Source: a bacterium
GTDB taxonomy: Bacteria; Vulcanimicrobiota; JABDET01
Length of the DNA: 64,000 bases
Assembly: GCA_021817145.1 (NCBI GenBank)
Contig: JAKAVV010000005.1
Coordinates: forward strand, 1 to 64,000
Direction: 5' to 3'
Shown piece by piece: positions 6,995 to 30,476 of this stretch. The notes below the pieces were generated by a model. It saw only the letters and a list, made by a program, of their open reading frames with translations. It did no database searches and had not been told where the DNA came from. The stretch's first letter is position 1. Each line of letters begins with the position of its first letter. Both the position numbers and the translations under genes were made by a program.

Positions 6995-8812
6995 ATGAAA
7001 AATCTCAAACTTGAACTCCAAGAACTCGCAGCAGCTCTTTCTCATGATTCGCTGCACAGAAGCATTCAAAACCTTCTTTGTCTTTTGATCCGAGCTGCAG
7101 GGGCTGATGTTGGTGAGATTTTTCTTGCCCAGCCTAATGGGAAGGGAATGGTATTGACATGGCTTGAAGGACCTTTTAAAAGCGCTTTTTCTCAGAAATA
7201 TAAATTTGCAAAAGGGGAGGGATTTCCAGGAAGGGTTTTAGAAACGGGAAAATCTATTTTTTCGAAAAATTTAAAAGAAAATGAAACTTATTTAAGAGAA
7301 AAAGTAAAAAAGCTTGGGTTTAACTCATATTTGTGTGTTCCCGTTCTAGAGAAAACACAAACCATTGCTTCTATTCATCTGGCATTCCGCTCGCAGAACC
7401 ATGATCTTGAAAACGCAGAGAAACTTCTTTATACAGCTTCTCCATTTTTAAGTGTCCGAATCCAGGCGGCTTTTTTCCACCTCCAGGAAACAATCATGTC
7501 CTCTCACCAAAATCTGCGATCCCTTTTGCAAGAAGTTCTGCAAACAGCTGCAGCTCTTTGTTCAGCTCACGGTGGGAATCTTTATCTTGTGAGAACAGAT
7601 AATACAGGAGTGTTTGAAAAAGCTTTTTTTGGCTGCGGATCTGAGAATGGCTGTCATACGATTCAAACGGGATCAAACAAAAAGGAATCAAGCGGGATCT
7701 GCCCAGCGTTGAATAGCTGCGAAAGCGTTCTTCTTTCCCGCTCCGATAACCAGAAGCCTGTCCCATGCCATTTTGATCCCCACAAAACAGCGCTTTCCTA
7801 CTGCATCCCTTTTGGAATCAACAAGGATCTTAATGGCTTGCTGGAGATCATCTATAGAACAAACCCCCCTTTTCCATTTTCTCAAAATATTCCTTTACTG
7901 GAATGGATCTCGAGGAAAGTTTCCGCCAGGATACATGATTTTTTGGAAAAAAAGGATCTAACCGATATTTCAGAGATAAAGATCAAGCATCCGAAAGTTG
8001 AGGATAAACCTGATGATCGGAGTGGTTTTTTAAAGTTTTTCTGCTTTGGACCTTTTCGATTTTATGTGCGGAATACTCTCATCACCTCAAGTCTGATAAA
8101 ACGGAAAAAAAGCCTGATCCTCTTGAAAATTCTTCTTACCTTTCGTGATCGATTTCTCTCCAGCGATGAACTCATTGATCTCCTCTGGCCAGAAGAAAAT
8201 TCAAGTGATTTAGGGAAAAATAGACTCCACGTTCTTTTCCATTTTCTTAGAAGAATGATTGAACCTGCGGCTGAAAAAAAGAATAGAATAAACAAATGGG
8301 ATTTCCTTCAGAGAGAAGAAAATCGATATCGCCTTCATCTAACAAGCGAGTGTTACAGCGATGTCGAAGAATTCAACCATTTCCTGAAACAAGCCGAAGA
8401 AGCCAGGCTTAAAAACGATCTGAATGAAGCAAAAATAAAGTACGAGAAAGGAATAAGTTTGTACCAAGGGGATTACTTGATGGAAGAATCATTTGCAGAA
8501 TGGTGCTGGATAAAAAGAGAGGAGCTGAAGCAGAAATTTTTAGATGCTTCTCGGAAACTCATCATAATTTATGAAAAGAATAATGAATGGGATAAGGGTG
8601 TTTCCACATTGAATCGAGCCCTCCAGATTGATCCTTATAGAGAAGAATTTTATCGTTTTTCGATGCGTTTCCTCTGGAATGAAGGGAAAAGAGATGATGC
8701 TCTTCGGCAGTATGAGATCTGCAGGGAAAAGCTTGAAAAAGAGCTGAAAATTCCGCTTCTATCTGAAACAAAGGAACTAGCTGAAAAAATAAAAGCGGGG
8801 AAAATTTTATAA
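6995..8812 (+). CDS. GAF-domain transcriptional activator with SARP-type DNA-binding and BTAD domains
   Basis: A 605-residue regulator. Residues about 10-165 form a GAF sensor domain (KGEGFPGRVLETGKSIF) and about 165-310 a second, weaker GAF-like region. Residues about 345-440 form an OmpR/SARP-like winged helix (LLWPEENSSDLGKNRLHVLF). Residues about 445-600 are a bacterial transcriptional activator (BTAD) TPR domain (LYQGDYLMEESFAEWC, RALQIDPYREEFYR). SARP proteins bind tandem direct repeats next to the -10 box; a perfect 11-bp tandem repeat lies 15 bases after this gene, ahead of the oxidase operon. GGAGG lies 10 bases before the ATG. The GAF ligand is unknown. Confidence 0.85.
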   Translation: MKNLKLELQELAAALSHDSLHRSIQNLLCLLIRAAGADVGEIFLAQPNGKGMVLTWLEGPFKSAFSQKYKFAKGEGFPGRVLETGKSIFSKNLKENETYLREKVKKLGFNSYLCVPVLEKTQTIASIHLAFRSQNHDLENAEKLLYTASPFLSVRIQAAFFHLQETIMSSHQNLRSLLQEVLQTAAALCSAHGGNLYLVRTDNTGVFEKAFFGCGSENGCHTIQTGSNKKESSGICPALNSCESVLLSRSDNQKPVPCHFDPHKTALSYCIPFGINKDLNGLLEIIYRTNPPFPFSQNIPLLEWISRKVSARIHDFLEKKDLTDISEIKIKHPKVEDKPDDRSGFLKFFCFGPFRFYVRNTLITSSLIKRKKSLILLKILLTFRDRFLSSDELIDLLWPEENSSDLGKNRLHVLFHFLRRMIEPAAEKKNRINKWDFLQREENRYRLHLTSECYSDVEEFNHFLKQAEEARLKNDLNEAKIKYEKGISLYQGDYLMEESFAEWCWIKREELKQKFLDASRKLIIIYEKNNEWDKGVSTLNRALQIDPYREEFYRFSMRFLWNEGKRDDALRQYEICREKLEKELKIPLLSETKELAEKIKAGKIL

Positions 8813-8915: not shown

Positions 8916-9494
8916 ATGGAATGGCAGAAAAGAGCTTTCAGCATGAGTTATCAGGGAACCAGCCTTCAGGTTGATGCAGGGCTCCTTGTCCTTGGGGTTG
9001 ACATTTTGATTTTGCTGCTTGCGATTTATGTGGCTTTTGCGCCCAAATCAACCCTTCCCAAAGAGGAGATTGCCCACAAGGTTTATGGCGCGCGGAAGGT
9101 TTACTTCTTCTTTATTAGCGCTGTTTTGATCCTTGCGCTTTTTACGACACTTCCCTTTACTCCTTATCCTCAATTTAAAAAAATCAAACCTGCTCTGGTT
9201 GTGAGGGTGATAGGAAGGCAGTGGGCATGGAGCATGAATGGATTAAATACGATAACTGTTCCTGCTGACAAGCTGATTGAATTTCAGGTAACCTCTTCTG
9301 ATGTGAATCACGGATTTGGAATTTACAATCCCCAGGGAGAGCTTGTCGCCCAGACACAAGCCATGCCTGGTTTTGTGAACAAGCTAAAATACACTTTCCA
9401 CAAACCAGGAGAATACAAGGTTTTGTGCCTGGAATTATGCGGTGTTGCCCATTACATGATGGCCGCCAATATTGAGGTGATACAATCTAAATGA
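8916..9494 (+). CDS. Heme-copper oxidase subunit II with CuA site
   Basis: A 192-residue membrane-anchored electron-entry subunit. Two membrane helices (about 20-43 and 63-83) precede a cupredoxin domain. The CuA ligands are complete: a His in DVNHGFGIY (about 126) and CLELCGVAHYMM, giving Cys, Glu, Cys, His and Met. The site should accept electrons from cytochrome c or another soluble donor. The ribosome site is poor at both ATG 8916 and ATG 8943, so the start is uncertain. The gene overlaps subunit I by 4 bp (ATGA). Confidence 0.92.
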   Translation: MEWQKRAFSMSYQGTSLQVDAGLLVLGVDILILLLAIYVAFAPKSTLPKEEIAHKVYGARKVYFFFISAVLILALFTTLPFTPYPQFKKIKPALVVRVIGRQWAWSMNGLNTITVPADKLIEFQVTSSDVNHGFGIYNPQGELVAQTQAMPGFVNKLKYTFHKPGEYKVLCLELCGVAHYMMAANIEVIQSK

Positions 9495-10927
9495 GAAAAG
9501 TTACAATTGTATGGATGGCTACTGTCCTGATCTTGTTTTTAGTTTTCGCTGCTCTCGGGCTTTTAATGAAGATGAATCAAGCCGAGTTTGTGAACCTGCC
9601 TCCAGAGTATTTTTACGCTTTTCTAACCCTGCATGGTTTAGGAATGATAGGGATCATTTTTTGCGGAACGTTTGCAGGGGTAGGATATCTTTTGTCTCGT
9701 TACGTTAAATTAAATTTATCTCTGATGTGGTTTGTTTATTTTTTTACTGCAGCTGGTCTGATTGGGCTTCTCCTCGCAACTCTTGTGGGAAAATTTGGGG
9801 CGGGATGGTATGTGCTTTACCCACTCCCCTTTTATTCACAGCACACCTGGGCAAACTGGTCAGTCCTTCTCGCCATTGTTTCTATAATTGTTTTAGGGGT
9901 GGCATGGCTTATAGGGCTGCTTCATCTTATTTACGCGATGTCTTGTCAATATGGGTTCAAAAACCTGCTGGGGTGGCAGTATCTATCAAAAGAGGAAAAA
10001 ATTGTAGAAATTCCCCCTTCTGTCCTGATTGTGACTGTGAGCTCTATTACAGGATCCCTTGGCATTGAAGCTGGGGCAGTCATGATGATGATGTATCTGT
10101 TTAAGTTTTTTGTGCCGTCTCTTTCTTTCAATGTCTTGATTTTAAAGAATTTAGATTTCTTTTTTGGTCATATTCTGGCAAATATAACGCTTTATCTGGC
10201 CCTAGCCTGGGTTTATGAGCTTTTCCCGAAATATTCTGGGCGTCCCTTGAAAATCAATAAAATCATAGCTTTTGCCTGGAACTGTACCCTTGCTTTTATC
10301 CTGTTCGCTTATTTTCACCATCTTTATATGGATTTTGTCCAGCCTGTTGGCTTGCAGTTCGTTGGGCAGATTGCTTCTTACATGAGCGCTGTGCCTGCAA
10401 CTGCTGTTACGCTTTTCAGCGCTGTTGGGCAAATTTATAGATCGGGAATAAGATGGAGCTTTACTCCTTTTAGCTTTTATCTCGGGCTGATAGGATGGAC
10501 AATGGGAGGCTTTGCAGCTGTTGTGGATTCAACGATCCGGGTGAACCTGATTTTCCACAATACCCTCTGGGTTCCCGCTCATTTTCACACTTACCTTTTG
10601 TTTGGCGTTTTCCCGCTTTTTCTCGGCTTTGTTTATGATTTTCTAAATGGACAGAATGATGTCCCGCGAGATTGGATAAGTATCATAGGTTTGTGGATTA
10701 TGGTGATTGGGGGCTTAGGTTTTCTTCTTGCTTTTTACCTTGGTGGAATTGATAGTGTTCCAAGAAGATTTGCGGTTTATTCCTACTCAGGGATCAATCA
10801 GGTCTATCAGCATGGAACCCATCTGGCTGCTTTTGCGATTCCCTTTATTCTTATTCTGCTCTTTGGGATCGGGATGATTTATTTTTCCTTCCTTAGAAAA
10901 CTGAAACAGGCATGGGTGGAACCATAA
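9491..10927 (+). CDS. Heme-copper oxidase subunit I, B-family-like, lacking the active-site tyrosine
   Basis: A 478-residue, about 12-13-helix catalytic subunit. Metal ligands can be placed by alignment with ba3-type oxidase from memory: low-spin heme His48 and His366, CuB His227, His276 and His277, and high-spin heme His364 (HNTLWVPAHFHTY). The helix VI motif of oxygen reductases is H-P-x-V-Y, whose Tyr is cross-linked to the CuB His. Here it reads GHILAN, so the Tyr position is Asn231. Loss of this Tyr is seen in heme-copper NO reductases, so oxygen reduction cannot be assumed. The gene overlaps subunit II by 4 bp and the SCO gene by 16 bp. Confidence 0.9.
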   Translation: MRKVTIVWMATVLILFLVFAALGLLMKMNQAEFVNLPPEYFYAFLTLHGLGMIGIIFCGTFAGVGYLLSRYVKLNLSLMWFVYFFTAAGLIGLLLATLVGKFGAGWYVLYPLPFYSQHTWANWSVLLAIVSIIVLGVAWLIGLLHLIYAMSCQYGFKNLLGWQYLSKEEKIVEIPPSVLIVTVSSITGSLGIEAGAVMMMMYLFKFFVPSLSFNVLILKNLDFFFGHILANITLYLALAWVYELFPKYSGRPLKINKIIAFAWNCTLAFILFAYFHHLYMDFVQPVGLQFVGQIASYMSAVPATAVTLFSAVGQIYRSGIRWSFTPFSFYLGLIGWTMGGFAAVVDSTIRVNLIFHNTLWVPAHFHTYLLFGVFPLFLGFVYDFLNGQNDVPRDWISIIGLWIMVIGGLGFLLAFYLGGIDSVPRRFAVYSYSGINQVYQHGTHLAAFAIPFILILLFGIGMIYFSFLRKLKQAWVEP

Positions 10928-11547
10928 AAAAGATCCTTCTTCCCCTTGCTCTACTTCTTCTGTGGGCAGGAGTTATTTATGCCTGGACAGATGGATTAAA
11001 AGCATTTACGTTTTACAGTTTAACTCTTCTTAAGGCAGGTCCGCTTCCACGTCCTTTTCCAAATTTTCCGATAAAAACTTCTAAAGGAAAGATTTTCTAC
11101 ACAAAGGATTTCAAAGGGAATTATCTGCTTGTCAGTTTTTTTTATACAGAGTGCAGGACATCTGTTTGCCATCTTTTAACATCTGATATGGAGCAGATTT
11201 ATGAAAAGCTGAAACCTCTCCATCAAAAAAAATTGATTCTCCTCAACTTGAGTTTTAACGTGAAACAAGATACTCCAGAACTCCTTTCAGCCTATCAAGA
11301 GGAGATGGGAATAGTAAATCATAAAAGGTTAATTCTAGGGGTTTTGGATTTATCGAATTTTAAAGAAGTTCATGAGCTGCTGAAAAAGATCGGAATCTGG
11401 GTTTATCGTCTTCCTGATGGATCGTATAATCATTCTGCTATTTTGATTTTTGTGAATCCAGAAGGAAGAGTGATCGCGATCTTTAATCCAGGGCTCCAAT
11501 CAATTGACAGCATTGTTCAAACTCTGAAAACAGACCTTGTGTCATGA
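10912..11547 (+). CDS. SCO1/SenC-family copper chaperone or thiol protein
   Basis: A 211-residue protein with an N-terminal membrane anchor (about 7-25) and a thioredoxin-like domain. SCO proteins deliver copper to CuA using two Cys and one His. The Cys pair is TECRTSVCHLL (Cys81, Cys86), CX4C rather than the usual CX3C; the His is in NHSAILIFVNPEGR. The gene starts inside the end of subunit I, so the two are translated together. Delivery of copper to the subunit II upstream is the expected job. The extra residue between the Cys makes metal binding less certain. Confidence 0.85.
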   Translation: MGGTIKKILLPLALLLLWAGVIYAWTDGLKAFTFYSLTLLKAGPLPRPFPNFPIKTSKGKIFYTKDFKGNYLLVSFFYTECRTSVCHLLTSDMEQIYEKLKPLHQKKLILLNLSFNVKQDTPELLSAYQEEMGIVNHKRLILGVLDLSNFKEVHELLKKIGIWVYRLPDGSYNHSAILIFVNPEGRVIAIFNPGLQSIDSIVQTLKTDLVS

Positions 11548-12062
11548 AGTGGATCTTGTGGGGGATCGTTTTTGCGTTTTGTTTCTTTTTCCTGGACAGA
11601 TGGTTTGCTGCCACAATGCTTCATTATCTTTTTCTGCAGATTCCCGTTTTTATTTCTCTCGGATGGGTCAGTGGGTCCTGGTGTCCTTCTAAACCTGCGG
11701 ACTCAGGAGCTTCTCCCATCATCTTTTTAATAGGTTCCCTTATTTTTTGGATGATTCCCCGTTCTATGGATCTCTGTTTTTTTTCCCATGGGTTGAGAAT
11801 AATCATGCGCCTTGATCTTTTAACTAGTGGATTCTGGCTCGGCAGCTCCTTTAAATCAGTCAGATGGGAGATCAAAGCGGCATTCTGTTTTTTTCTCATC
11901 GCCATGTTTCTTTCCTCCGGGTTTGTTTTTTTTCAATTCAAAACCCTGTTCTGCAGTGTTTATACACTTGAGCAGCAGAAAACTGCAGGGGAGTTTCTTG
12001 TAGGTTTTTCTCTCTTCTGGCTTTTGAGTCTGACAGCAGTGGGATTGCTTACACTTCCTTAA
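11544..12062 (+). CDS. Membrane protein of the oxidase operon
   Basis: A 172-residue protein of about five predicted membrane helices. No named domain is recognised. It overlaps the SCO gene by ATGA and is the last gene of the oxidase operon. Position and size suggest an assembly factor or accessory subunit; the residue pattern resembles cytochrome c oxidase assembly proteins only vaguely. No metal-binding motif is seen. Confidence 0.65.
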   Translation: MKWILWGIVFAFCFFFLDRWFAATMLHYLFLQIPVFISLGWVSGSWCPSKPADSGASPIIFLIGSLIFWMIPRSMDLCFFSHGLRIIMRLDLLTSGFWLGSSFKSVRWEIKAAFCFFLIAMFLSSGFVFFQFKTLFCSVYTLEQQKTAGEFLVGFSLFWLLSLTAVGLLTLP

Positions 12063-29656: not shown

Positions 29657-30058
29657 TTATTTTTGAAAATTTTCTTGAATTTGACTTATCCCTTTAACTC
29701 TTGCCCAGATGGGAAGGAGAAAAAAGAGCAAGCCCAGGATAACAAAACTTTTTCCTAATAAGGACAGGAAACTGAACAGAGAAAGAATGACTCCTATGTT
29801 AAAAAAGAAGAAGCTCAACCATGCTAAAGGTTCATATTTCCTTTTTTTGTCTGTCCGTGGAAAGATCCAGAAACTAATTCCAAACACAAATTGGAATACC
29901 CAGCCTATCAGCAGCAGATCAATATGATCTTGAAGCAGCATCCCTTGAAAAGGGGTATATCCAATCCCTTTTCCTATTAACATAAAAGCCCCAATGCTTG
30001 TTCCCATAAAAAAATAAATGAGGGATGATTTTAAAAACCAGCAGCTTAATTTCGGCAT
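29657..30058 (-). CDS. Small four-helix membrane protein, paralog of the next gene
   Basis: A 133-residue protein with four membrane helices. The pattern HIDLLLIGWVFQFVFGISFWIFPR resembles the His-bearing helix of heme-copper oxidase subunit I and of NnrS-like proteins. A similar stretch is in the neighbour at 30060-30476, so the two arose by duplication. It is the last gene of the FNR-box operon. Heme binding by the conserved His is an inference. Confidence 0.7.
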   Translation of the reverse strand: MPKLSCWFLKSSLIYFFMGTSIGAFMLIGKGIGYTPFQGMLLQDHIDLLLIGWVFQFVFGISFWIFPRTDKKRKYEPLAWLSFFFFNIGVILSLFSFLSLLGKSFVILGLLFFLLPIWARVKGISQIQENFQK

Positions 30059-30059
30059 T

Positions 30060-30476
30060 TTATCTTTCCTTAATTCTTCCCCAGATCAAGAACACAAACA
30101 AAACGGATCCTAACCAGAGAAATAAAGCGGAAAAAACCAGTAGAATATTCCAGACAGCAGCTGGATTCAAGGCTTGTTCTGGTTCTGAAACAGCTCTTAA
30201 TAATAATCCTGAATTTAAAAAAACGAGAATAAGCCAGCCCAATATTTCTGTTCGATTCTCTGTGGCAATTTTTGGAGAAGGGCGTGGAAACAGCCACCAG
30301 GACACTCCGATAATGGTTTGAGTCAGCCATCCAATCGTGAGAAAATGGATGATGACAAGAGTAAATGCAGAAGCTAAATAAGAGAAGCGCGGAAGTGAGA
30401 AAAAAAGATCCATAAACAGCCCAAGGAGTAGATAAATCACTCCGCTTTTAATAAACCATCGGGTTAAAGTCGGCAT
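30060..30476 (-). CDS. Small four-helix membrane protein, paralog of the downstream gene
   Basis: A 138-residue protein starting MPTLTRWFIKSGVIYLLLG, like the following protein (MPKLSCWFLKSSLIYFFMG). The His-bearing motif is IHFLTIGWLTQTIIGVSWWLFPR. Such small oxidase-subunit-I-like proteins occur with NnrS and denitrification genes. Only one base separates the two paralogs. Role inferred from the operon. Confidence 0.7.
   Translation of the reverse strand: MPTLTRWFIKSGVIYLLLGLFMDLFFSLPRFSYLASAFTLVIIHFLTIGWLTQTIIGVSWWLFPRPSPKIATENRTEILGWLILVFLNSGLLLRAVSEPEQALNPAAVWNILLVFSALFLWLGSVLFVFLIWGRIKER

Follow-up and report, generated by a model that had tools for sequence, protein, structure and literature searches.

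A CuA-type heme-copper enzyme with asparagine at the cross-link tyrosine position, a putative nitric oxide reductase of the sNOR kind

The locus described here raises the question of whether a heme-copper enzyme with asparagine in the place of its active-site tyrosine reduces oxygen or nitric oxide (NO), and whether it represents a new kind of enzyme or one already described. The window, i.e. the whole stretch of 64,000 nucleotides that was analysed, encodes this protein within a tight set of four genes that is directly preceded by a regulator gene:

6995-8812, forward strand: GAF + BTAD (SARP-like) regulator (PF03704, 82 bits; GAF, 49.5 bits)
8916-9494, forward strand: subunit II, CuA cupredoxin, 192 aa (PF00116, 45.6 bits)
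9491-10927, forward strand: subunit I, catalytic heme-copper subunit, 478 aa (PF00115, AF2 model, Foldseek, tree)
10912-11547, forward strand: SCO1/SenC-type copper-insertion protein, 211 aa (PF02630, 46.9 bits)
11544-12062, forward strand: small DUF1404-like membrane protein, 172 aa, equivalent of cbaC2/orf1 (hydropathy)

The subunit I gene begins with an ATG codon, and its product scores 168 bits against the Pfam COX1 profile (PF00115; cut-off 34.8). The AF2 model of this protein (mean pLDDT 91, pTM 0.91) contains 12 membrane helices and, when used as a query in Foldseek, retrieves cytochrome c oxidase subunit I with a TM score of 0.85. No model in Pfam or NCBIfam names its family, and identity with CtaD, SoxB or CyoB was rejected, as the scores against these models fall far below their cut-offs. 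The first-pass annotation had described a heme-copper subunit with all six ligand histidines and asparagine at the position of the tyrosine that forms the His-Tyr cross-link, and alignment confirms this description. The ligands are H48, H227, H276, H277, H364 and H366, and residue 231 of the GHILAN motif, which contains the helix VI CuB ligand H227, is Asn. In a profile alignment that includes solved structures, the family's HtlaN lies opposite the HPIVY of the Thermus ba3 oxidase, such that N231 occupies the position of Tyr237.

Searches of public genomes recovered at least 440 confirmed relatives, from which 80 loci were taken to build an alignment of 81 rows together with the window. Asparagine is found at position 231 in 79 of these 81 rows, the exceptions being L061, with Thr, and L051, a frameshifted sequence with a gap; hence, Asn231 is due neither to chance nor to a sequencing error. 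Within the same phylum there are ten hits in nine other genomes, all ten with Asn. The hosts of the relatives include Bacteroidota, Verrucomicrobiota, Acidobacteriota, Spirochaetota, Aquificota, Myxococcota, Planctomycetota, Pseudomonadota and others.

A tree of 75 rows, which included ba3 oxidases, eNOR copies and A-family oxidases and left out the sequences of ammonia oxidisers (AOB), places the window protein in a 65-row clade of Asn-type sequences (100/100) along with Ruegeria and one Thermomicrobium copy. This clade sits on a long branch apart from the ba3 oxidases (Tyr), the eNOR sequences (Gln) and the A-family oxidases, and persists when the long Thermomicrobium row is removed. The window protein is sister to a group from Bacteroidota and Verrucomicrobiota (99/96). 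The phylogenetic check places it outside the clade of ba3 oxygen reductases. Identity as a ba3-type (B-family) oxygen reductase was also rejected on the active-site motif, in which the Tyr position of HPxVY is Asn. Of the residues of the ba3 proton path, some are retained in subunit I: the equivalents of Tyr248 and Thr312 are kept (Y242 and T307), Tyr244 is replaced, and the equivalent of Ser309 is mostly Ala in the family.

The genes of the set follow the order CuA subunit II, subunit I, SCO/SenC and small membrane protein, and the subunit I gene overlaps its neighbours on both sides. The CuA assignment made in the first-pass annotation is borne out by subunit II, which carries the CuA motif CLELCGVAHYMM at residues 171-182 in addition to His132, and has two N-terminal membrane helices (hydrophobic stretches 15-48 and 56-84). 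The product of the last gene shows about 4-5 hydrophobic segments and weakly resembles DUF1404 (23.3 bits, under the cut-off of 29.4). Of 82 related loci, 81 have a CuA homologue directly 5' of subunit I. A gene similar to the window SCO is found downstream in 41 of the 82, and a syntenic homologue of the small membrane protein in 35, both mostly in the window's own clade; in about 25 further loci the protein encoded directly 3' contains the SCO-type motif FTRCxGxCxP, by motif match only. As for regulation, the GAF-BTAD protein directly 5' of the set is an architecture encountered here in a genome that looks non-actinobacterial, and it is a possible candidate for the regulator of the four genes. 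A homologue of this protein is present near subunit I relatives in just 1 of 80 loci, and a scan for promoters of the four-gene operon returned fewer hits than did shuffled sequences.

The closest available congener (G001) yields no hit for subunit I in its genome, and purine genes lie beside its MoeA gene, in the place that the four-gene set takes in the window. Therefore, the set is variable within the genus, through gain or loss. The copper motif of the window SCO (residues 81-86, CRTSVC) has the form CxxxxC, as opposed to CxxxC in the other aligned SCO proteins of such sets, including those of relatives of the same group; this may reflect a change peculiar to the lineage or an error in the sequence. 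Both the missing gene in the congener and the altered SCO motif are what might be expected of a defunct or relaxed copy that has lost its respiratory role. However, no ligand is missing, the CuA motif and the set of four genes are intact, and residues found invariant across 49 sequences are kept in the window protein, which makes such decay very improbable.

The same combination of features has been described in enzymes linked to NO reduction. The type II qCuANOR of Bacillus azotoformans and Geobacillus has Asn in place of Tyr, a short subunit I with 12 helices, a two-helix subunit II, a linked SenC gene and a protein of 4-5 helices (Heylen and Keltjens, PMC3475470). In gene order, Asn, helix number of both subunits, SenC and membrane protein, this system (BAZO_04695-04710; Geobacillus) equals the window, a likeness drawn from its description and not from sequence identity. 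The genes norSY-senC-orf1 are the sNOR genes of ammonia oxidisers (PMC4940428), and the AOB system shares with the window a four-gene set with SenC and a B-type heme-copper subunit (PMC4940428, PMC6967387). Most AOB additionally carry NirK, whereas neither NirK nor NirS was detected in the window's genome. A published compilation lists N as the active-site residue of sNOR, which is reported there from Betaproteobacteria, Silicibacter, Deinococcus and Geobacillus and is described as lacking a proton channel (PMC8756737 Table A4).

Other CuA-type or tyrosine-less NO reductases match the window less closely. The bNOR of B. azotoformans (CuANOR type I) resembles it in its CuA subunit and in the Asn at the Tyr position, but this identity was rejected because bNOR has 13 helices in subunit I and one in subunit II, against 12 and two in the window (PMC3475470). 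The eNOR enzymes (Thermus and Thermomicrobium plasmid copies, L109-L111) are likewise CuA-type and derived from the B family, but they have Gln at the Tyr position, in agreement with the published active-site Q, and fall outside the Asn clade. gNOR was rejected on its active-site Asp (D), as the window has Asn and three CuB histidines (PMC8756737 Table A4). Two observations concern the Gln-type copies themselves: those on Thermus plasmids (L109, L110) and in Thermomicrobium (L111) are annotated as cbb3-type or ba3-type oxidases, and in Thermus the oxidase gene is followed by genes for an Rrf2 regulator and a DUF542 protein.

Among sequenced members of the Asn clade, the protein SPO_RS20755, encoded on the megaplasmid of Ruegeria pomeroyi DSS-3, formerly Silicibacter and as such a listed carrier of sNOR, shares with the window the Asn, the CuA-COX1-SCO-membrane protein order and the placement in the clade; the identity is 36%, with 77% of the protein covered. 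The Ruegeria cluster continues with a formate/nitrite transporter gene and a cytochrome c gene and has an Rrf2 regulator just 5', in contrast to the GAF-BTAD regulator of the window. The deep Asn clade contains several groups, and the 26-row group to which the window belongs (100/100) does not include Ruegeria. This raises a question of naming, namely whether the window protein might be a member of nNOR, which Murali et al. are said to have proposed in 2024 as another NO reductase family, rather than a strict sNOR. We consider this somewhat unlikely, since both the Asn and the gene order of type II agree with how sNOR has been described, and it would in any case be compatible with an NO reductase function.

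Because the protein belongs to the Asn (sNOR) clade and is encoded in the published sNOR gene order, the best reading of the pair is that of a putative two-subunit CuA NO reductase of the sNOR (qCuANOR type II) kind, and we regard this as probable. The first-pass annotation had proposed a CuA-type NO reductase or some other non-canonical enzyme. The former part holds as the preferred reading, while the enzyme is no oddity: it belongs to an already described and widespread group, and the family itself is not new. In the proposed mechanism a periplasmic cytochrome c or a cupredoxin, presumably, would donate electrons to the CuA of subunit II, from where they would pass to the low-spin heme (His48/His366) and on to the high-spin heme (His364) and CuB (His227, His276, His277). 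At this heme/CuB site two molecules of NO, the likely substrate, would yield N2O and water. With Asn231, the enzyme lacks the Tyr of the His-Tyr cross-link, the source of the fourth electron for O-O splitting, and O2 chemistry would thus be disfavoured. SCO/SenC would load the copper.

A tyrosine supplied from elsewhere in the protein could alter this picture. In cbb3 oxidases the substitute Tyr lies in helix VII, where it precedes the pair of His by six positions, counted from the first. In the present family that position is Ile or Val (I270 in the window), so the check by sequence for a replacement Tyr from helix VII, which the first-pass annotation had named as a possible objection, turned up none. 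A different tyrosine, Tyr235, located eight residues past the CuB ligand His227, is present in all the aligned rows (window and L016-L095) except for one gap, whereas the ba3 and eNOR sequences compared have Met, Leu, Ile or Ala at this position. By helix geometry alone, Tyr235 lies two turns, or about 12 Å of helix, from His227 and approximately one turn below Asn231; the distance would be too great for a Tyr235-His227 cross-link in a regular helix. A more far-reaching idea is that Tyr235 is a relocated catalytic Tyr serving in proton or electron delivery, in an enzyme that reduces both NO and O2 and links both kinds of reductases; we hold this to be decidedly doubtful.

The conservation of Tyr235 also bears on the reading of these proteins as high-affinity oxygen reductases that dispense with the His-Tyr cross-link, perhaps with Tyr235 as an extra electron or proton donor. 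Such a role was put forward for the sNOR of Nitrosomonas europaea in a transcriptome study, in which the genes were induced under O2 limitation and the evidence for NO reductase activity of sNOR was rated as indirect (PMC6967387). It also counts against the NO reductase reading that the accessible literature yielded no purified enzyme of this exact clade whose NO reductase activity is proven. Set against an oxygen reductase are the position of Tyr235 out of cross-linking reach, the presence in the window's genome of two more COX1 genes, both Tyr-type A-family oxidases with HPEVY, and the B. azotoformans enzyme of type I, which likewise has Asn and which Heylen and Keltjens equate with the purified CuA NO reductase (PMC3475470). 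On this balance an oxygen reductase appears unlikely. NO reduction is instead probable: it is favoured by the Asn, by the B. azotoformans enzyme just named and by the DUF2249/ScdA/hemerythrin genes of the NO-stress type that occur within 5 kb of 7 of 80 related loci.

The genomic context of the window itself contributes less than had been anticipated. The first-pass annotation had pointed to an FNR-box hemerythrin/NnrS-like operon as a sign of NO handling. The operon at 30-33 kb does encode a hemerythrin/DUF2249 protein, along with an NAD-binding reductase. There was no NnrS family match in this operon or in the genome, although the search control also matched in no genome; the FNR box near the operon has one mismatch and was discarded, as 11 such one-mismatch boxes were found against 6.7 +/- 2.7 expected, i.e. 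at chance level. Adjoining the hemerythrin/DUF2249 gene are two genes for small membrane proteins, at 29657-30058 (reverse strand, 133 aa) and 30060-30476 (reverse strand, 138 aa), of which the former has a product similar to positions 1-100 of COX1 (28 bits, below the cut-off).

Searches of the window's genome for NirK, NirS and NosZ gave nothing above chance-like matches; the lack of a detected NO-producing nitrite reductase was counted against the NO reductase reading. Therefore, the most likely role of the enzyme in its host would be the removal of NO, either entering from outside or formed in side reactions. Among relatives, NosZ occurs in 3 of 9 genomes that have the gene and in 3 of 48 that do not (Fisher p 0.044, uncorrected for kinship), a co-occurrence that weakly supports NO reduction. 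NirK shows no such association (1 of 9 versus 3 of 48), which counts against that reading. Elsewhere in the window's own genome (contig C35, locus L100, 3714-13680), genes were found for an NrfD-like membrane protein, an FeS protein, a Mo-enzyme and multiheme cytochromes, together with an 802-aa protein whose translation has, by eye, the look of an outer-membrane barrel of the MtrB/PioB type. This region is possibly a module for extracellular electron transfer or iron oxidation.

Genes of this kind are annotated as cytochrome c oxidase by automated pipelines, as seen in the Ruegeria and Thermomicrobium records. Where Asn, a CuA subunit pair and an SCO partner are recognised together, the genome can be flagged as that of a likely N2O producer, even though it lacks a classical NO reductase. 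If Tyr235 proves to be functional, the Asn clade would also be a good place to study the change from oxygen reductase to NO reductase.
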